This document shows, piece by piece, positions 3,668 to 12,838 of a stretch of DNA of 64,000 nucleotides. Position 1 is the stretch's first letter, and each line of letters starts with the position of its first letter. A program made the position numbers and the translations under genes. The DNA is from a virus. The stretch is from the IMG/VR virus record IMGVR_UViG_3300024323_000001, positions 1 to 64,000 of that record; one strand, written 5' to 3'. Under the pieces are notes generated by a model. The model had not been told where the DNA came from, ran no database searches, and saw only the letters and a list, made by a program, of their open reading frames with translations.

Positions 3668-3883
3668 TCACGATGAGCCGCCGTTTGTTGGGAGCGTCGC
3701 GAGCGCAGCCTTGCGGGTCATCTGGCGCTGTGAATATGTCTGGAGGGCTTGGCCGAGCAGGTAAGCGAAGAGGATTGGGTCGTGGACGTTCTCGGTGATG
3801 GAGACGGTCTTGGTGAGAGGGTTGATGACGATTTCGATGCGGAGGTCGTGCTTGCCAGCGTCGATGCGGGTGGGGTCGCTCAC
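3668..3883 (-). CDS. Small protein downstream of portal (71 aa)
   Basis: The start overlaps the portal stop (ATGA), so translation is probably coupled to portal. The product (MSDPTRIDAGKHDLRIEIVI...) has a beta hairpin-like start and a helical C-terminus. Unknown family; the position suggests a head-assembly accessory. Confidence 0.7.
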   Translation of the reverse strand: MSDPTRIDAGKHDLRIEIVINPLTKTVSITENVHDPILFAYLLGQALQTYSQRQMTRKAALATLPTNGGSS

Positions 3884-5796
3884 TTGGACTCCGTGATCTT
3901 CCCGGCTCCGCCCATCTTGGGCATCGTTTCGCCAGAGGCTTTGCGGCCGGTGGCGCTCACTTGCGGCGTCAGTCCCATATTGTTCTGAGCGATTAGGCGG
4001 TCGGTGATGGTGATGGCACCATCGGGAGCTTTGCCCGCGTTCGGGATGCCGAGCTTCTCGAACAATGTCCAGATATCCATGAGTCCAGCTCTCATAAGCT
4101 GGATGTAAAGGAGCTTGTCCGTCACCTCGGACGCGCTCAGCAACGAGCCCGGCGCCACGTCATACGTGAATTGTTTGAGGAACCACTTCGCCCGGATATG
4201 GCGCTCGACGTTCTTCCCTTCCTTCTGATGCTCTTGGGACATGTAGGCGGGAATCATCGTGCCCGCGTCATTGTCAGCGTCCTCGAAGGTCATCCCTTCG
4301 TCGCCGAGCACAGCGAGTCGGTCTTCGAGAGTGTAGAACTGGAAGACGTTCGAGAGAGACATCATCGCAAACTCGCGCAGCGACGCCTCTAGGACTCGTG
4401 AGCGCATCCTGATAGCAGGTGACATCGCCTCGAGAATCTTCTCCACGGTCTCGGTCGAAGGGATCTGGCCGAGATTCATGAATTGCTGCATATCGCGGAC
4501 GCCGCTAATCTTGTCCATCTCGTCGCGGAGGTCTTGGATAGCCAGTTGGACGGAGGGATCCAGAGGCTGAGCGTACTGAAGCTCAGCGTTCTTCCCTGCG
4601 ACGGGATTGGTGCGGAGCTTCAATCCAGCTTTGCGCGTGTCGATCGCCGCCATCGCAGCGCGAGAGATGGCGTTCTTGTCGGCGATGAGGTCGGGGCGGA
4701 AGACCTTTTGGTTGTGGTCCGAGACGCCGCGGAGCAGGCGATGGAGTTCGTCTTGGAGCGTGAGGATGTCCATGAGCGGCGGTTTACCCAGCCACGTCCA
4801 CGGCCATGGGTCCAAGGGAATCTTCACGATAGGGAAGAGGCCGTGCCAGTAGATATTCGGCCCGTCGCGGAGGACACAAGTGCGAGTGAAGGTGATGGTG
4901 CGACCGCGAGGATAGATGCGGTCACCAGGGTCTACCCAGTAGGACCAGTTCGGGTGCTTCTCGGGCGTCCCCTCCCCCACCCACACGCGCGAAGCGCTCT
5001 CGTTCCGGCGGAGGTCGTGAACGTGCAGCGTGAACACATCGGCGGAGGGAATGGTCATGTGCGCCGCGGGCTTGCCGCCGAGCGATGCCCACAGATTCCG
5101 CATGAAGCTCGAGAAGCCCATGCGCTGCATCGTGGATTGGGCGCGCGTGACCTTTTCCATCATCGCCGCCGACATGTCGCGGTCAGCTTTGATTAGGCCG
5201 CGGTCCCACTGGCGAGGGTATTTGGCGCGCAGGTAATTGAGCGGACGCTCACGACGGACGATGAGGCCCATTGCATCTTGGATGGAGATGTTGTTCGGCG
5301 GGCGAATAGGGAGGCAATCACGCGGGTCCTCAGGCGAACAGTCATTGTCCCCCGTGAACTCGTTGTAGAAGAGGTGAGCGTAGCCGGAGCCCGCGACCTC
5401 GGCGTACTTGATGCAGTCGCAGAACTTGAGGTCGATGAGGCGCGAGGTCCACCAGTGCTTAGTGAGCTTGTTCCCGAGCACCGCCTGTTGCTCGTAGCGC
5501 TTGTTCTGCGTGGTGTAGTTCCAGAACGGTTTGATGTCGGTCATCGCGCCGGCGAAGTCGAGGGCGATCTTGCCGAAGCGATTGTCGATGAGCTTCGAGA
5601 ACGAGCCGGGGACCATATCGCGGGAGTAGTCGCCCATGATGTAGTCGATGCACGTCGAGATTTGCGAGTAGCCGACTTGGGACTTGAGGAAGGATTCGCC
5701 CTCGGCGAGCGCGTCATTGGCCCAGCCTAGAACGGCGTCGAGATGCTCTTGCTCACTATCATTGAGGCTTCCTGCGGGGGCTTGGGGCTCGGCCAT
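3880..5796 (-). CDS. Portal protein (638 aa)
   Basis: Length, place directly after the packaging genes, and pattern fit a podovirus-type portal, the dodecameric ring through which DNA enters the head. Features include an acidic helical N-terminus with a conserved-looking YIMGDYSRDMVPGSF segment, a central beta region, and a long C-terminal helical part (DEMDKISGVRDMQQFMNLG, then ETVEKILEAMSPAIRMRSRVLE) that matches stem and wing helices of portals. It is Trp- and Tyr-rich, as is common in portals. The 71-residue gene follows with an ATGA overlap. The exact family was not checked against a profile. Confidence 0.82.
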   Translation of the reverse strand: MAEPQAPAGSLNDSEQEHLDAVLGWANDALAEGESFLKSQVGYSQISTCIDYIMGDYSRDMVPGSFSKLIDNRFGKIALDFAGAMTDIKPFWNYTTQNKRYEQQAVLGNKLTKHWWTSRLIDLKFCDCIKYAEVAGSGYAHLFYNEFTGDNDCSPEDPRDCLPIRPPNNISIQDAMGLIVRRERPLNYLRAKYPRQWDRGLIKADRDMSAAMMEKVTRAQSTMQRMGFSSFMRNLWASLGGKPAAHMTIPSADVFTLHVHDLRRNESASRVWVGEGTPEKHPNWSYWVDPGDRIYPRGRTITFTRTCVLRDGPNIYWHGLFPIVKIPLDPWPWTWLGKPPLMDILTLQDELHRLLRGVSDHNQKVFRPDLIADKNAISRAAMAAIDTRKAGLKLRTNPVAGKNAELQYAQPLDPSVQLAIQDLRDEMDKISGVRDMQQFMNLGQIPSTETVEKILEAMSPAIRMRSRVLEASLREFAMMSLSNVFQFYTLEDRLAVLGDEGMTFEDADNDAGTMIPAYMSQEHQKEGKNVERHIRAKWFLKQFTYDVAPGSLLSASEVTDKLLYIQLMRAGLMDIWTLFEKLGIPNAGKAPDGAITITDRLIAQNNMGLTPQVSATGRKASGETMPKMGGAGKITESK

Positions 5797-5998: not shown

Positions 5999-6415
5999 CT
6001 AGATTATCCCTCTCGTCGATTCGCGGAACCGTTCGTAGCGCTTCTCTTCACTCGGCAGGCGCGGGTCGGTCCCTCCACCATCGTAGCCCCGGCCACCACG
6101 GTTGAAATTCGAGTCCTCGTGCAGGACGTTGTTCTCGCGGCAGAATCGGTCCATCTCGCGGGGCGCAATCACAAGGCGCTCGCAGCCCGGCGGAGTCGGC
6201 GCGTCATTGCGGCCGGGGTAGCGAATCCGGCCCTGCTTGTCGCGGAACACCACGGCGAGATTCTTCTCAAGCGCGGGAATCGTAGGGCGGAGGCGGAAGA
6301 CCTGCTCCATCTCCCGTCCGCACTCAAGGTGGACTATGCGCTCGGGGACTTTCATCACGAAGAGGTCATCGACCTGAGCGCCACAGGGACACTCGAGGTC
6401 AAGATACTTGGGCAT
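5999..6415 (-). CDS. FmdB-like zinc-ribbon protein (138 aa)
   Basis: The start MPKYLDLECPCGAQVDDLF resembles the short FmdB-type zinc ribbon found in many phage head clusters, with a CxC/CG knuckle near residues 9-12 and a further Cys near 33. The rest is charged and low in hydrophobic residues, with a Gly/Arg-rich patch (FNRGGRGYDGGG). Role unknown; its place just before the portal gene suggests a structural or assembly accessory. Confidence 0.65.
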   Translation of the reverse strand: MPKYLDLECPCGAQVDDLFVMKVPERIVHLECGREMEQVFRLRPTIPALEKNLAVVFRDKQGRIRYPGRNDAPTPPGCERLVIAPREMDRFCRENNVLHEDSNFNRGGRGYDGGGTDPRLPSEEKRYERFRESTRGII

Positions 6416-6426
6416 CTCTGGCTCCC

Positions 6427-6567
6427 TTAATACTTCTTGCGGCCGGAGGCGGACTTCTTCTCGCCCTTCTCCGCCTTGCCGAAGGGCTTGGACTTGCCGA
6501 TTTCGCCGCCTGATTTGCCGAACTTTGACTTGAACTCTGGCTTCTCTTTACCGCCGAATTTAGCCAT
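6427..6567 (-). CDS. Tiny Lys/Gly/Phe-rich protein (46 aa)
   Basis: ATG at 6567 follows an AAAGAGG ribosome site and the frame closes at 6427. The product starts MAKFGGKEKPEFKSKFGKSG and keeps this Lys-Gly-Phe pattern to the end, so it is highly basic and disordered. It fills an otherwise empty gap in the tightly packed late operon. Compare the Lys-rich mini-proteins at 336-855. Confidence 0.65.
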   Translation of the reverse strand: MAKFGGKEKPEFKSKFGKSGGEIGKSKPFGKAEKGEKKSASGRKKY

Positions 6568-6603
6568 CTGGGTTACCTCTTTGGGATTGGAGATGGGCTC
6601 CGA

Positions 6604-6807
6604 TTACGAGCCGGGCTTGTAGATATGAGGGACGTTCTCAGCTACGGAAACTTTGTGGACAATGCCACGAGCACCTTTGGATGGAGCGTGATTGCCCCGC
6701 CATGTGGCGCGGTCAATGTCGTTGAGATAGCGCTGGGAGTGCTCGAGGTCGGTTTCGGGGCGGGTCGTCTCGTCAATGGGAGTGGGGATTGGAGATTTGG
6801 ATTTCAT
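6604..6807 (-). CDS. Small polar protein (67 aa)
   Basis: ATG at 6807 has a strong AAAGGAG ribosome site 7 bases upstream. The product is polar, with a run of acidic and basic residues around ETDLEHSQRYLNDIDRATW. No family recognised. Confidence 0.65.
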   Translation of the reverse strand: MKSKSPIPTPIDETTRPETDLEHSQRYLNDIDRATWRGNHAPSKGARGIVHKVSVAENVPHIYKPGS

Positions 6808-6817
6808 AGAGGCTCCT

Positions 6818-7696
6818 TTACCACGGCCTCAAGCCAGTTACACGTTCAAGGCCGAGAATGACTTCCTTCTTCACGTAATCCTCGAGAGTCTTCCGTTCGG
6901 ACTTCGCGCGAGAGGCGCAGCGAGCGAGCACCCGCTCTGTGAGTTCGATGGTGATATCGCCGACCTTGAGGTTGACGACAGTCTTGATCTTCTCGATTGC
7001 AATCTGAGCATTCGGGATGAGATGGCCTCCAGTGATGCGTTCGAGGTCAGCACGAGTGGCGGAGTCAAAGTAGAGCCCTCGGCCTGAGGTGTGCTCGACA
7101 CACGTTCGCAGTCGGTCGCTCAACACTTTCTCGACGCTCACGTTGATGGATTTCGCTTGTTCCTCGTACTGATGGAATAGCGAGTCGGGGAGCATGAGGA
7201 TGACGCGAGTGCGCGATTCGCGCTGAGACTGCCCATAGGCGTCGGGCGGCTTCGGCGGGTCAACGATTTGTGCTGGAGGATGAGAGGACATCTTCGTGTC
7301 TCCATTCTGGAATGTAGCATAGAACCGCGAGGGTGCAATGACTTTCGCTTCGGGGCCGACAATCACATAGGGGATGTGGTGCTTGTCGAAGAACTCTACC
7401 GAGGGGCGGAGGATGGGGTCAGAGCCGTCCCAGAAGAGGAGCGCGGAGTCGAAGTGAGTGTCAAGATGCGATGAGTTATAGGTGGGAGTCCATTTGATTG
7501 GCGCCGCGGGATACTCATTGAGCTGGAGGATTGTGCGTCCCAGTCCGTTCTTGGATGCGATGTGGAATTGAGCCGGCGCGAGCGATTGAAGGTGAGTGTG
7601 GACGGCGGTGAGATTGACGTATTCGTAGCTGAAGAGGACGATGACTTGGCGCGTCTGAGCGGAGTCAGTCATCTCCGAGCGCCGCCACCCGCTCAT
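6818..7696 (-). CDS. Hypothetical protein with C-terminal ribbon-helix-helix-like segment (292 aa, or 284 from the inner ATG)
   Basis: Two starts are possible: ATG at 7696, or ATG at 7672, which overlaps the stop of the terminase nuclease gene (ATGACTGA). The N-terminal 110 residues look like a Rossmann-type domain (VIVLFSYEYVNLTAVHTHLQ, then FDSALLFWDGSDPILRPSVEFF, then IPYVIVGPEAK). The middle segment RTRVILMLPDSLFHQYEEQA resembles a ribbon-helix-helix DNA-binding motif, and a similar strand-helix repeats near the C-terminus. Coupling to the terminase nuclease suggests a packaging or late-gene role, but that is inference. Confidence 0.7.
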   Translation of the reverse strand: MSGWRRSEMTDSAQTRQVIVLFSYEYVNLTAVHTHLQSLAPAQFHIASKNGLGRTILQLNEYPAAPIKWTPTYNSSHLDTHFDSALLFWDGSDPILRPSVEFFDKHHIPYVIVGPEAKVIAPSRFYATFQNGDTKMSSHPPAQIVDPPKPPDAYGQSQRESRTRVILMLPDSLFHQYEEQAKSINVSVEKVLSDRLRTCVEHTSGRGLYFDSATRADLERITGGHLIPNAQIAIEKIKTVVNLKVGDITIELTERVLARCASRAKSERKTLEDYVKKEVILGLERVTGLRPW

Positions 7697-8513
7697 CCCA
7701 CGACGCTACCATCTGGTCGTAGCTTATGTCAGAGGCTTCCCACCGCGGCGCGTTCTGCTCGCTCGGACGCTCCAAGGGCTCTAGGTTCTCTCGCGTGGAC
7801 CAGTCGTGCATCGCCCACAGATTGAACAGGGTGGACATCACCCTATCATCGTGGCGGCCGTAGCGCGCTTCACCGATTAGGGTCCAGAGGTCCGAGACGC
7901 AGTCGGCCATCTCCTCGACGAGCCACTTCGACTTAAGCACGACGCCGTACTTCTGGATGTGATGGAGTCCGCGCATCCACAAATCCTTATTGGCGGAGCG
8001 TGACGAGTACCACCAATACTGTTGAGTGCGGCGGACGGCGGCGGAGCCCCACTGCGTCCACTGCCACAGATTCGTGTAGGCGTAGCGGTCTACGAGTTCG
8101 CGGAGCGTGACCGCTCCAGGCCCCGTAACCTCTCCAATGAGTAGAGCCTGACCGTCCTCATGGCTTCCCCCGTACAGTAGTCCAATAGTCGCAGCAATTG
8201 GGGCGATGTCGATAGCGTCAACCGGGGCAGCGAATTCAGCCACCTGCACGTCTTGACGTCCGTCTCGTCCAGCACGAAACACCTCGATACACGCATTATC
8301 TGTGTCGAGGTCGGCCTCGGTTCGGAACTCTCTGGACCAACCGGCACGTCCAACTGTAGGGTCAACAGACACGACGTAAGTGGAGTCATTGCGAGGTTCC
8401 TCCCACACGAACAGGATTCCCCGTTCGTCTTCGTCGTCCGCTGAGTAGGGCGTGACGGTCCTGTTTCCAACTCTCCACGATTTGGGCTCGGTTGTCATTC
8501 GCCTTCGCGCCAC
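7665..8513 (-). CDS. Terminase large subunit, nuclease half (282 aa)
   Basis: This is an RNase H-like terminase nuclease domain as a separate gene. Three acidic motifs are visible: YVVSVDPTVG (Asp51), LLIGEVTGPG (Glu128) and the typical ARYGRHDDRVMSTLFNLWA (Asp222/Asp223). It would cut concatemeric DNA at the start and end of packaging. In most phages this domain is the C-terminal half of TerL, fused to the ATPase; here the ATPase is a separate gene at 9800-11011 and a glycosyltransferase-methyltransferase gene lies between. The start overlaps the end of that gene by 19 bases. The two halves sum to 685 residues, a normal TerL size. Confidence 0.85.
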   Translation of the reverse strand: MARRRMTTEPKSWRVGNRTVTPYSADDEDERGILFVWEEPRNDSTYVVSVDPTVGRAGWSREFRTEADLDTDNACIEVFRAGRDGRQDVQVAEFAAPVDAIDIAPIAATIGLLYGGSHEDGQALLIGEVTGPGAVTLRELVDRYAYTNLWQWTQWGSAAVRRTQQYWWYSSRSANKDLWMRGLHHIQKYGVVLKSKWLVEEMADCVSDLWTLIGEARYGRHDDRVMSTLFNLWAMHDWSTRENLEPLERPSEQNAPRWEASDISYDQMVASWDERVAALGDD

Positions 8514-9799
8514 ATCCAGATGGAATCGACTGCGAGCTTCGCCTTGGGAAGAAGTTCGTTGACTGCCCTCTTTACACCAGGGAACACATCGTTAGAGCCG
8601 TCCGTGCCCTTCTGTTCGTAGTCGTGCCCACAAATAACTCCACCTTTGGCTAAGTGCGGGAGCCATGCTTCAATATCAGCCTTAATATCTTCATAGTCAT
8701 GCCCAGCGTCTATAAATATCATGTCGAATTTGTCGCCATTGAGCGACTGAGCGGCGTTTAGTGATGTACCCCGCAACACCGTCAGATTCGTGTGCTCCCC
8801 AAGATTCCGCATGAACTCCTCGAACAGATAATCAGTAGGCATCACGCTCAAGATACGCTGCCCGGCGATTTCCATTGCACGCCGAGTGTCTGCGTCGCCA
8901 CCCCAAGTATCAACGGCAGTAACGCGGCCCTTCGTGTTCTGCACCAGCGCCTTCGTCGAGCGCCCTTGGAAGGAGCCAATCTCGACGATGTTCGAACTCA
9001 CCTTGGCCCACTGGGCGAGCCATGCCAGTTCTAAGGGAGACATCCACCCGTCAATCTTGAGGGCGTCGCGAATGTCCATGATATGGGGGACCGGGGGCCA
9101 GAAGGGGTAGCTGTCCTCGGTGAGCGTGAACGCATTCCCCTGCTGGTCGTAGTGGCGGCAGAGGATTCCACCGTGCGCGAGGATACGATGCCCTGCCGCC
9201 TTGGCCTTCTTGCAGAAGAAGATATCGTCAGTCATCTCGCCCTTGTGGAGGATCTCGTTCACGTCCTTGGGCTCGGCATAGACACCGGCTTCCTTCTCTT
9301 CCTCCAAGGTGTTGAGGTCGCGGAACCACGGCTTCGGAAGCGTCGAGAACACGCTCGTCCGAATCACGATGCAAGCGGTCGCTATCTCATCGACCTCGAA
9401 TATCTCTCCCACCTTCCATTTCCAGTAAGGTCCGCCGCTGGAACCTTTGAAGAGCATCGGGTCAGCGTTCACTCCCTTCGCCGTAACAATGCCGCCGATC
9501 ACGTCAAATTCGTCGTGCATCTCCAGTTCGCGGACCATGAGCATCGGAGCGTCCGCTGGTGGCACCACGTCGTCGTCGAGCATCATCACGTACTTAGACT
9601 TCAGCTCGATGGCCTTCTCAATTATCTCCTCACGTGCCTGCTCGCGAGGCTTCCCCTGCACCGGATAGAGCGCGTGCTTGATATTCATGGGCCAGCACAG
9701 GGCAGAGAGCGTGACGGCCCACATCGGCGGGACGTAGCGCCCGGCGAACGGCAGCCCTAACAGCACCTTCATGTTGTAGTCGTCGGGATTGAATGGCAT
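8495..9799 (-). CDS. Glycosyltransferase (GT-A)-class I methyltransferase fusion inserted between the terminase halves (434 aa)
   Basis: The N-terminal half (about 1-250) is a GT-A fold glycosyltransferase: a start like KVLLGLPFAGRYVPP, a metal-binding acidic triplet at MMLDDDVVPP (75-77), and an acceptor-side motif EMTDDIFFCKKAKAAGH (188-204). The C-terminal half (about 255-434) is a class I SAM methyltransferase of the Methyltransf_24 type: EIGSFQGRS glycine motif (273-281), FIDAGHDYED (362-371) and GGVICGHDY. Together they could transfer and methylate a sugar on a virion, DNA or host surface glycan; the substrate cannot be told from sequence. The start ATG directly follows the stop of the terminase ATPase gene and the end overlaps the terminase nuclease start. 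Confidence 0.85.
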   Translation of the reverse strand: MPFNPDDYNMKVLLGLPFAGRYVPPMWAVTLSALCWPMNIKHALYPVQGKPREQAREEIIEKAIELKSKYVMMLDDDVVPPADAPMLMVRELEMHDEFDVIGGIVTAKGVNADPMLFKGSSGGPYWKWKVGEIFEVDEIATACIVIRTSVFSTLPKPWFRDLNTLEEEKEAGVYAEPKDVNEILHKGEMTDDIFFCKKAKAAGHRILAHGGILCRHYDQQGNAFTLTEDSYPFWPPVPHIMDIRDALKIDGWMSPLELAWLAQWAKVSSNIVEIGSFQGRSTKALVQNTKGRVTAVDTWGGDADTRRAMEIAGQRILSVMPTDYLFEEFMRNLGEHTNLTVLRGTSLNAAQSLNGDKFDMIFIDAGHDYEDIKADIEAWLPHLAKGGVICGHDYEQKGTDGSNDVFPGVKRAVNELLPKAKLAVDSIWMWREGE

Positions 9800-11011
9800 C
9801 TAGGCTACCCTCTCTACGTCGATTTTATATCCCTGCGCTTCTACGACTCGCTGACGGTAGTGCTCAAGGCACTCGAATCCGAAGGCCGACTTCTGGCGGT
9901 GCTGGAACGACTCTTCGATGGTGGCGCAGTAATTGGTGTAGAACACCGCGAGGTTATTCGATAGGTAGTATTCATCACGCGTGGATTGCCACCAATACAA
10001 CTGTTCCTTAGTGAGCATCACGTCTCGCCCGACGTACTTACGCGAGGTCTCATTCACCCGTTGGGCGTGGAGCATCGCCTCATCACTGGGCTTCCAGTCA
10101 GTGGGCGGAGTCGCCCGATACTTCTTCAGCTCGGCGTACCACGGAATGAAGACTAGGTGCCATCTGCGGAGCCTGTGCTCGGAGAGCTTCTTGACCTGTT
10201 GGTGCCACCAGTTCCCACGGCCTTGAGCAGTCGATTCCAGAAGCGCAAACGCCCGGAGGGATTGCGGTATTGTGGGCATCCAGTCATGTTCAATGATTCC
10301 AGGGTAGGGCCATGAAGCACATTCAGTGAGATGCGTAACGTCGAACTGGCGACCTTGCCCGAGTCCGCTCTTTTGAGTTCCAAGCTGATAGATGACACGG
10401 CTTCCCAGCTTATCGAAAAAGATGTGCTGAGCTTTCTCATCGAATCCAATGGAAGGGCGGAGATAAAATGGCAGGTTGTCGATGATGAGTTTGTCTCGGT
10501 CATAAAGCTCCAGTACCTTATCGTCGTCGATCGAGGCGGCCATCGCCCTAGTGTGTTCGCGAGCGGTCATCGCGTGAACGCTGATGGCGCGGCCGAGCGC
10601 AGTGGCGCCGAGCTGCCGGGCCTTGTGTAGAAAGATGAGGATTCCATCGACGCTCTCCCCACGCGAAGCCATATCGACCATCTCGTCTTCGAGGCGGGCG
10701 ATGAACCGGAGGAGAATCTCTTGAGATTCCCATGGCGACGAGAACGTCTCGAGGCCCCCTTGGTCTACCAGCAGGTGAGCGTAGCGCGTGAGCCAGTAGC
10801 GGAAGTCGATCATCGACAGGAGCTGCTCGTTGCGAATGAACGCTCTCTCCTCTGCGTTGAGGTCGCGCGCGAGCTGGCCGTCTTCCTTGACGAGTCGCTG
10901 GAGGTCGGCCTTGCGCTGCATCACCTCGGGGATGTCGTAGCGCCTAAGCGTCAGCTTAGTGGCCGCTTCGACCTTCGATTGCGAGCGTTCGATGAGTCGC
11001 GTCGAGTACAT
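9800..11011 (-). CDS. terL: Terminase large subunit, ATPase half (403 aa)
   Basis: This is the packaging motor ATPase. The Walker A equivalent is FLHKARQLGATALGRA (130-138), a variant of the KxRQxGxT motif of phage TerL. A Walker B-like strand ends at HLTECASWP (Glu230), and the coupling motif is LLESTAQGRGNWWHQ (EST at 259-261). The chain stops after YCATIEESFQHRQKSAF..., exactly where the linker to the nuclease domain is expected. The stop TAG is followed at once by the ATG of the glycosyltransferase-methyltransferase gene, and the nuclease domain is a separate gene beyond that. The start ATG abuts the TAA of a small zinc-ribbon gene. Confidence 0.87.
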   Translation of the reverse strand: MYSTRLIERSQSKVEAATKLTLRRYDIPEVMQRKADLQRLVKEDGQLARDLNAEERAFIRNEQLLSMIDFRYWLTRYAHLLVDQGGLETFSSPWESQEILLRFIARLEDEMVDMASRGESVDGILIFLHKARQLGATALGRAISVHAMTAREHTRAMAASIDDDKVLELYDRDKLIIDNLPFYLRPSIGFDEKAQHIFFDKLGSRVIYQLGTQKSGLGQGRQFDVTHLTECASWPYPGIIEHDWMPTIPQSLRAFALLESTAQGRGNWWHQQVKKLSEHRLRRWHLVFIPWYAELKKYRATPPTDWKPSDEAMLHAQRVNETSRKYVGRDVMLTKEQLYWWQSTRDEYYLSNNLAVFYTNYCATIEESFQHRQKSAFGFECLEHYRQRVVEAQGYKIDVERVA

Positions 11012-11221
11012 TTATTTTTGGTCCGCGAATCTGCTACTTCCCCACACATGCTCAAAATCTTCACCGCACTTGGGACAGCGTATAGCAGAATGTTCTCCGC
11101 AGAGTTCACATCCCACTACACTATCAGTCCACTCTTCAGTAGGGCTTATTTCTCCACATTCTGGGCAACGAACGTCTTTCACTTCCTCATCCACAAATAA
11201 ATCCATGTTGTCCGGTCTCAT
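11012..11221 (-). CDS. Small double zinc-ribbon protein (69 aa)
   Basis: Three CxxC knuckles are visible (CPECGE, CELCGE, CPKCGE), suggesting at least one structural zinc site. The start overlaps the previous stop (ATGA) and the stop abuts the terminase ATPase start. Many phages carry such mini zinc ribbons; no specific function is known to me. Confidence 0.75.
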   Translation of the reverse strand: MRPDNMDLFVDEEVKDVRCPECGEISPTEEWTDSVVGCELCGEHSAIRCPKCGEDFEHVWGSSRFADQK

Positions 11222-11469
11222 GGCACAATCTCCGCATCCTCACTGTCGTCAATCTCTATGCGCTTCCGCGCCTCGTCCAATTCGCGCTTCATCGTGGTCT
11301 CATCGTCGCTGTAGGTGACGCCGGGCGGCTCGCCCTTCAATTCCTTCGACTCGACGGGAGCGACGCGGTGGCCGTAAGCGTACTCTAGGTGGAGTTCGAG
11401 AGCGTGGGCGATTCGTTTCAGCTCACGGACAAGGAGCTTCACGTCACTGTTGATTTCGATGAGGCTCAT
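11218..11469 (-). CDS. Small helical protein (83 aa)
   Basis: I chose ATG at 11469, which overlaps the stop of the small membrane gene (ATGA), rather than the longer frame to 11571, whose N-terminus would be a Cys/Arg-rich shadow. The product (MSLIEINSDVKLLVRELKRIAH...) is helical with an acidic C-terminus. Unknown function. Confidence 0.65.
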   Translation of the reverse strand: MSLIEINSDVKLLVRELKRIAHALELHLEYAYGHRVAPVESKELKGEPPGVTYSDDETTMKRELDEARKRIEIDDSEDAEIVP

Positions 11470-11588
11470 TCGAGGAACACCACGATGGAGCCGAGCACAT
11501 AGAGCGCGACGAACACAGCACGTGCCCAGCCCTCGAGCATCCTCAGCAGCGCCACGAGGACGATGAACCACGCGATGAACTCAATCAT
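11466..11588 (-). CDS. Tiny membrane protein (40 aa)
   Basis: The product is nearly all hydrophobic, with two predicted membrane stretches (FIAWFIVLVALLRML and AVFVALYVLGSIVVFL). It is coupled by ATGA overlaps on both sides, which supports expression. It could be a holin-like or membrane-modulating peptide, but its place before terminase is unusual for lysis. Confidence 0.6.
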   Translation of the reverse strand: MIEFIAWFIVLVALLRMLEGWARAVFVALYVLGSIVVFLE

Positions 11589-11746
11589 GACGCACGCTCC
11601 AATATCCTGTTCCGTAGAGAAGCGCATCTTGGATAGCCTGAGTCACCGCCGGGATATTCCATCCACCGAAACAACCGATTAATCGCACGGTAGTATTGGC
11701 GTGTCCAGCTTCGGTCATTACCTGTTGGGAATACGTGGACGCTCAC
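11585..11746 (-). CDS. Small basic protein (53 aa), GTG start
   Basis: I chose GTG at 11746 because it overlaps the stop of the preceding membrane gene (GTGA); an in-frame GTG also exists at 11767. The product is Arg/Tyr/Trp-rich (TGNDRSWTRQYYRAINRLFRW). Unknown function; the evidence is tight packing only. Confidence 0.5.
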   Translation of the reverse strand: MSVHVFPTGNDRSWTRQYYRAINRLFRWMEYPGGDSGYPRCASLRNRILERAS

Positions 11747-11868
11747 GGTCTCACCCCGTTGTTCCACATCCCATAGACCTCCCAGACGACGAACCCGAGC
11801 AAGATAAAGCCGACGACGATGATTACCTTTTGGAGCGTCGAGTGCCTTGGCTCAAGTGGGTGGGTCAT
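11743..11868 (-). CDS. Tiny single-span membrane protein (41 aa)
   Basis: One hydrophobic segment (VIIVVGFILLGFVVWEVYG) follows a short polar N-terminus (MTHPLEPRHS). The start overlaps the stop of the TerS-like gene (ATGA). Function unknown. Confidence 0.6.
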   Translation of the reverse strand: MTHPLEPRHSTLQKVIIVVGFILLGFVVWEVYGMWNNGVRP

Positions 11869-12554
11869 TTCACGGGCTCCACTTTCACGTCGAGAACGTC
11901 ACGCACGCTAGCCATGGAGTCCTCCATCGTCGGAGCGCCGCCGTTGTTATTCTGAATAGCGACGAGCGGCCCGCGGTTCCCAGTCAGTTTCATCGTCTCG
12001 AAGAGGAGCTTGCGAGAATCAGCGTCCCCGACCTGCCTAATCGTGCCGACGCCATCGCACACAAGACACTTCTTCCACATCCCCCGGCCCTCGTCGTCGA
12101 GCTTCTGCAACACCACCTTCTTCTTTGTGTCTGGGTCCTCGACTATCTCGGTGACCGCGATGACCTTCGTCCCCTCGCAATTGGAGCAGGTCACCTCCTT
12201 GGACTTCGAGTCGATGGCGACGTCCTCGAGCACCTGAGGGACGTGGGCGCTCATCTTGAGCAACCCCTCGTCGAGCCGATAGCGCTGGATATAGTGCAGG
12301 ACTTGAGGGTAGGTGAGGCCGACGTCCTTCGCCAATTTGGGCAGAGAGTGCTTCCTGAAGGCGGGATCCATGAGCCGCATGAGAAGTTGCTGCGCTCGTT
12401 CATCCGGGGCGGCGTCCATGGCCCGCTCAAGCTCCGCACGTGGCACGGAGGCTTCGAGGCGGCGGAAGACCTTGTCGGTGTAGGGCTTTCCCTTTAGGGG
12501 GACCAATTTCATCTCACCTGTCTTAGGGTCCTTGACTGCGCGGCGGCCGGCCAT
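11865..12554 (-). CDS. Probable terminase small subunit (HTH plus CxxC zinc motif, 229 aa)
   Basis: I chose the ATG at 12554, which overlaps the upstream stop (TAATG); GTG at 12560 is also in frame. Residues about 30-90 are helical and contain a helix-turn-helix-like stretch (LPKLAKDVGLTYPQVLHYIQ). Residues about 115-175 carry two DnaJ-type CxxCxG half sites (CSNCEG and CLVCDG), so a zinc site is likely. A DNA-binding protein of this size just upstream of TerL is most simply the terminase small subunit that recognises the packaging site. A late transcription regulator is the alternative. Confidence 0.6.
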   Translation of the reverse strand: MAGRRAVKDPKTGEMKLVPLKGKPYTDKVFRRLEASVPRAELERAMDAAPDERAQQLLMRLMDPAFRKHSLPKLAKDVGLTYPQVLHYIQRYRLDEGLLKMSAHVPQVLEDVAIDSKSKEVTCSNCEGTKVIAVTEIVEDPDTKKKVVLQKLDDEGRGMWKKCLVCDGVGTIRQVGDADSRKLLFETMKLTGNRGPLVAIQNNNGGAPTMEDSMASVRDVLDVKVEPVK

Positions 12555-12838
12555 TACCACTCCACCGTTGCTCGAATATTGAAACGCTCCGCGTAGGGCG
12601 TCCCTTCGAGATGATGGGAGTTCTCGAACACGAATTCATCATCCTCTAACTTCGGGTCGGGCTTCACGGAAGCGTTCATAAATTGGGTAATTCGCCCATC
12701 GGGATGCTGGAAGTTGAGATACCAGTCCTGTTCCACCATTTTCAGGTGAAGGGGGATTGAGACCCTGAGTGTGTCGGGTTCCTCGTTCCCATAGGAAACG
12801 GCGTAGTAGGCGTTGAAGAGGGACTTGAGGAGGCTCAA
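12554..12838 (-). CDS. Hypothetical protein (94 aa), probable TTG start
   Basis: The frame opens with TTG overlapping the upstream TGA (TTGA), and its stop overlaps the TerS-like start. The product has a beta-rich core (LRVSIPLHLKMVEQDWYLNF) and an acidic C-terminal half. No family recognised. Confidence 0.65.
   Translation of the reverse strand: MSLLKSLFNAYYAVSYGNEEPDTLRVSIPLHLKMVEQDWYLNFQHPDGRITQFMNASVKPDPKLEDDEFVFENSHHLEGTPYAERFNIRATVEW

Follow-up and report, generated by a model that had tools for sequence, protein, structure and literature searches.

A large terminase encoded by two genes and probably made as two chains in a clade of uncultured viruses of bacteria

In tailed phages the large terminase subunit (TerL) is, to our knowledge, regarded as a universal hallmark made as a single chain. 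In the viral DNA analyzed here, its ATPase and nuclease halves lie in separate genes with an enzyme gene between them (Table 1), raising the question of whether the two halves act as separate polypeptides, are rejoined during expression, or were driven apart by the gene that now lies between them. The window, meaning the whole stretch analyzed, comprises 64,000 of the 64,011 bases of one IMG/VR virus record, with 11 bp of the record outside it. We consider it highly likely that this lineage makes TerL as a stable enzyme of two polypeptides from two genes, which arose by fission within the linker and whose boundary later took insertions.

Table 1. Genes and features at and around the divided terL locus, in window positions
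Feature	Position	Strand	Basis or remark
Conserved 231-aa protein, candidate small terminase	11865-12560	-	HTH-like, CxxC pairs; upstream of terA
terA, TerL ATPase half, 403 aa	9800-11011	-	ORF, motifs, profiles, AlphaFold model
3' end of terA	9803-9902	-	In L003/L002 a divergent copy and a LAGLIDADG-type ORF stand in its place
GT-MT, GT-A glycosyltransferase-like N-terminal part plus Methyltransf_24 domain, 434 aa	8495-9799	-	ORF, Pfam, PHROG
nuc, TerL RNase H-type nuclease half, 277 aa	7665-8498	-	ORF, motifs, profiles, AlphaFold model
292-aa protein, next after nuc in transcription order	6818-7696	-	
Portal protein (SU10-like), downstream of the TerL genes	3880-5796	-	phrog_156 E = 6.9e-6; PF23899 E = 2.1e-4

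Read in the DNA, the stop codon of terA directly abuts the start codon of GT-MT (TAGATG), and the stop of GT-MT shares 4 nt with the start of nuc (ATGA). The nuclease frame can be read from a GTG at 8513 (7665-8513, minus strand, 282 aa) or from an internal ATG at 8498; because the distant relative L004 aligns from 8498, the start of nuc was placed at the ATG. A first-pass annotation of this DNA had described two separate reading frames parted by a complete 434-residue gene that abuts one half and overlaps the other. The same ORFs were recovered here, and both halves are conserved genes in relatives, but GT-MT and nuc overlap by 4 nt, whereas the longer frame would give 19 nt. The portal gene is present in nearly all relatives, and the HTH-like CxxC protein is also found upstream of terA in many relatives of the split clade.

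The two halves are T4/RB49 gp17-like TerL ATPase and nuclease domains. The product of terA carries a Walker A motif (KARQLG, with K130 and R132), a Walker B motif (H227/E230) and a catalytic glutamate in E259-S-T (259-261); all 47 aligned sequences have K130, H227, E230 and E259. Its AlphaFold model (pLDDT 91.4) has the T4 gp17 ATPase as its best PDB fold match (E = 1.7e-11), and an ATPase profile with relatives added finds T4 gp17 among PDB sequences (3ezk, E = 9.9e-14). In nuc, D46, E123, D217 and D218 are invariant across 48 aligned sequences, the best fold matches of the model (pLDDT 81.0) are the T4 and RB49 gp17 nucleases (E = 1.3e-8 and 4.9e-8), and the corresponding profile finds the RB49 gp17 nuclease among PDB sequences (3c6a, E = 4.8e-8). 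The expected motifs ascribed earlier to each half, including the metal-binding carboxylates of the nuclease, are therefore borne out. PHROG terminase families are matched by 36 of 48 ATPase sequences (phrog_5989, terminase large subunit) and by 28 of 49 nuclease sequences (phrog_24361, terminase). Neither window half on its own matches a PHROG family or a significant Pfam family, the Pfam matches being at chance level, so phages of this kind can escape virus surveys that depend on models of the full-length TerL. Both genes are under purifying selection, with a dN/dS of 0.08 for terA against L003 and of 0.10 and 0.05 for nuc against L003 and L004. The AlphaFold models lose confidence at the break, in terA residues 371-403 and nuc residues 1-20, as expected of a flexible linker.

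The order terA, GT-MT, nuc recurs in 3300024279_000136, 3300024249_000179, 3300024246_000002, 3300050821_003742 and 3300005332_000019. The first of these is 100% identical to the window and possibly the same virus; excluding it, the TerL halves in these contigs, which come from several metagenomes, are 72-97% identical in protein sequence. An assembly chimera is thus ruled out by recurrence in independent contigs. An Rfam search found no intron in window positions 6400-12700 or in ten relatives, and the gene between the halves is complete, with its own start and stop, and under purifying selection (dN/dS = 0.095). On these grounds an intron or intein is rejected, in line with the first-pass annotation, which saw no features of either. 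No second ATPase or nuclease homologue was found in the window. A Pfam search of the genome gave no Terminase_6N match at all, so that search is uninformative by itself about a second TerL. Splicing, a second full-length TerL and a chimera, each of which that annotation had named as able to overturn its reading, were all examined by sequence, and none applies.

How old the split is can be read from the relatives. A wider scan with the nuclease alignment yielded 63 loci, and a locus was called split or fused according to whether both halves sit in one stop-to-stop frame. In a tree of 50 rows, 29 are split (the window and 28 relatives with separate ORFs) and 21 are fused. The isolate Tunturi_1 is a fused relative. 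The state changes four times on the tree, against a mean of 16.2 when states are shuffled (0 of 500 shuffles as low). The main clade contains 27 split rows together with the fused L035 and L050, and its sister is the fused L056. Fission was taken as the derived state because both the outgroup, L013, and T4 gp17 have the two domains in one chain. Most split genomes have the two genes side by side with no enzyme gene in between, and in many of them stop and start overlap as ATGA. Genomes that are split with no gene between the halves include L028, L032, L044, L047-L049, L052-L055, L057, L059 and L060; the overlap is 4 nt in L028, L032, L044, L048, L049, L053, L057 and L060 and 1 nt in L030, L033, L046 and L052, and the halves abut in L029 and L047. 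GT-MT lies at the break in the window's subclade (L001-L005 and L027, the last with the order GT-MT then nuc). Since many genomes are split without GT-MT, the fission is older than its insertion. The earlier picture of one TerL gene interrupted by an enzyme gene is accordingly not upheld. Judged by the order of genes on the tree, GT-MT is rejected as the cause of the split; it was inserted, within one subclade, at a boundary that was already there.

The fused L035 (6795-8822) and L050 (5230-7440) lie inside the split clade and offer natural fused controls. Trees that place both outside the main split clade are rejected (p-AU = 2.5e-9). The distance from the ESFQ Phe to the first catalytic Asp is mostly about 102 aa in fused outgroups and about 33 plus about 46 aa in split genomes, and the linker of L035, at 78 aa, is the sum of the two split ends. 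From this nesting and the linker length, L035 and L050 are most simply read as two re-fusions of the TerL halves, a reading which implies that the halves act in one pathway. Placing all split rows and the two re-fusions in one clade without L056 is also rejected (p-AU = 0.0003), so either L059 and L060 split separately or L056, which is a long branch, is a third re-fusion; L059 and L060 may thus represent a second fission.

The break accepts different inserts in different relatives. An endonuclease gene lies between the halves only in L002/L003, L004, L019 and L020, the insert in the window being GT-MT. In L019 and L020 it encodes an HNH endonuclease (phrog_1872, E = 8.4e-25 for L019), whereas L003 and L004 carry LAGLIDADG-type ORFs with the motif YAAGLIDGEG or YAAGLIEGEG (phrog_5046, E = 4.5e-18 and 2.3e-15; PHROGs labels this family HNH). 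Small ORFs occupy the break in L005, L018, L031, L034, L036 and L040, and two ORFs do so in L026/L027. The break therefore behaves as a permissive boundary, at which GT-MT is a passenger or coupled neighbour and not the cause. The LAGLIDADG-type ORF of L003 (IMGVR_UViG_3300024246_000002, 7111-7795; also in L002) lies between terA and GT-MT and comes with a replaced terA 3' end. The DNA alignment with L003 runs at 92% identity up to window position 9902 and breaks there, and the old end resumes at window position 9852; the displaced old 3' end of terA (VVEAQGYKIDVERVA in the window) now forms the tail of the L003 endonuclease ORF. In L004, a second, related LAGLIDADG-type ORF (8429-9091) stands on the far side of GT-MT, between it and nuc, and overlaps the start of nuc. 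Directly after nuc, L003 has a C5-cytosine DNA methylase gene (9902-11008; PF00145, E = 1.3e-18) that is absent from the window.

GT-MT itself contains a Methyltransf_24 domain (PF13578, E = 2.3e-22, with a score of 80.3 bits where the cut-off is 26.3) and matches phrog_2675 (E = 3.1e-28). Its glycosyltransferase part has a weak PF13641 match (E = 0.02, below the cut-off), and MLDDDV, with a DDD motif, can be read in the sequence. The gene evolves faster than its neighbours, with a dN of 0.49 against 0.16-0.24 for the TerL halves (L004, L005). Between the otherwise near phages of the window and L003 (GT-MT at 7796-9079), the methyltransferase part has diverged sharply while the N-terminal part is close, and in L007 the identity is about 68% from residue 280. 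Domain recombination is a likely source of the divergence in the methyltransferase part.

These observations fit a history in which an ancestral single-chain TerL, with an ATPase, a linker of about 100 aa and a nuclease, would have undergone gene fission within the linker, leaving the short ATPase tail after ESFQ and the nuclease head before the first catalytic Asp. The split genes would often have been coupled by stop/start overlap, and a boundary between two intact genes could later take in other sequences: homing endonucleases of the HNH and LAGLIDADG types, small ORFs and, in the subclade of the window, GT-MT, attached to its neighbours through similar stop/start coupling (TAGATG on one side, ATGA on the other). 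The three genes would then be translated from one message through this coupling, and the ATPase and nuclease would dock non-covalently via their domain interface, assemble on the portal and package DNA as a heteromeric two-chain motor. The first-pass annotation stated that the motor must assemble from two polypeptides; with two conserved genes and no intron or intein, this is very probably so. The contact between the N- and C-terminal domains of T4 gp17 exceeds 1000 square angstrom (PMC9958956), which suggests how the two chains could meet. In the same protein, however, both domains reportedly stay active when the hinge is removed, but DNA is no longer translocated (PMC9958956). A two-chain motor would accordingly need a non-covalent replacement for the hinge; the T4 result is the main difficulty for such a motor and the main reason for interest in it. 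Tentatively, the nuclease of such a motor could be a separable subunit, present in another ratio to the ATPase ring or engaged only at the start and end of packaging, with no covalent hinge needed, though we think this rather doubtful.

The halves might still be rejoined after transcription or in translation, by an undetected intron, an intein, bypass or frameshifting, to give a single-chain TerL. Precedent exists in the terL genes split by spliced group I introns in Jug phages (PMC12363816) and Bastillevirinae (PMC11878797), and the 1-4 nt overlaps of several relatives would permit a frameshift. However, the intervening DNA of the window is a complete gene under selection, no Rfam intron was found, and most relatives start nuc at a separate ATG. 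Among relatives the halves may overlap by 4 nt, lie 112-465 nt apart or stand as far as about 1,300-1,840 nt from each other, a spread that no single recoding mechanism fits, and rejoining appears very improbable. A less remote alternative, improbable all the same, is that insertion of GT-MT or a homing endonuclease caused the fission, as in genes in pieces, and that the insert-free genomes lost the insert later. The splitting of phage genes by mobile endonucleases has precedent (Friedrich 2007, cited in PMC3322345), and HNH or LAGLIDADG-type ORFs do lie between the halves in four of the loci above. Yet the inserts differ in family between subclades and occur both before and after GT-MT, a bare overlap of start and stop is the most frequent state, and those relatives of the window that lack GT-MT are already split. 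The 4-nt junctions of L028, L032 and L044, with no gene between the halves, already point away from an insertion as the cause.

A further possibility is that the nuclease half is no longer used in packaging, or that both halves are degenerating and another terminase has taken over their role. Motors of the phi29 type package DNA with no active nuclease, and 11 bp of the record fall outside the window. Against this, the nuclease carboxylates are invariant, purifying selection is strong, no other TerL-like ORF occurs in the window, and the re-fusions retain both halves, so that we find loss of function or replacement hardly credible. Linker fission giving a stable two-gene enzyme is thus the reading we prefer.

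Among known systems, T4/RB49 gp17 shares both folds, the Walker motifs and the RNase H carboxylates, and is the best structural match for both halves; gp17 is one chain, whereas the window TerL is cut in the corresponding linker. The nearest isolates by sequence are the Tunturiibacter phages Tunturi_1 and Tunturi_2, podoviruses of soil Acidobacteriota, whose sequences are about 26% identical to the ATPase half and 24.5% to the nuclease half; they too have the portal downstream, but a single 723-aa TerL. In the Jug phages and Bastillevirinae the terL coding sequence is likewise broken up, and endonuclease genes lie within or close to its breaks, but it is restored by RNA splicing, while in the window no intron was found and an unrelated enzyme gene lies between. 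In phage Aeh1, nrdA/mobE reportedly yields an essential enzyme from two polypeptides, a gene in pieces by way of a homing endonuclease. As there, an essential phage enzyme is in two polypeptides here and mobile genes lie at the break in some relatives. The differences are that terL is the divided gene, that no endonuclease interrupts it in the window and that the break is empty in most relatives. The rearranged terA end of L003 recalls the yeast WHO elements, which replace the 3' end of FBA1 (PMC7282813). The LAGLIDADG-type ORF likewise brings a replacement terA 3' end and displaces the old one, but in a phage, with terA as target and not in the window, and the resemblance is one of DNA arrangement only. 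We know of no phage case of a WHO-like element.

That terL can be split by spliced introns and that essential phage genes can be in two pieces is already known; we found no report in the open-licence literature of a stably split, unspliced, clade-wide two-gene TerL. No isolate with a split TerL was found, and hence no host or virion for the split clade, which is made up of uncultured viruses of bacteria; a search for a bacterial genome with a relative also found none. The Vibrio phages K249 and 1.205.O, matched by split-clade nuclease queries, have a fused TerL. This clade appears to have evolved, kept and twice reversed a cut in the linker, and it makes testable the need for a covalent ATPase-nuclease link, the number of nucleases per motor and the timing of nuclease engagement. 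Two loci show other changes in the ATPase. In L020 (7983-9247), the gene is in two overlapping frames relative to its close relative L019, reflecting either an indel error or decay. In L062, a second ATPase-half homologue (8701-9957, E = 6.7e-28) follows a fused TerL.
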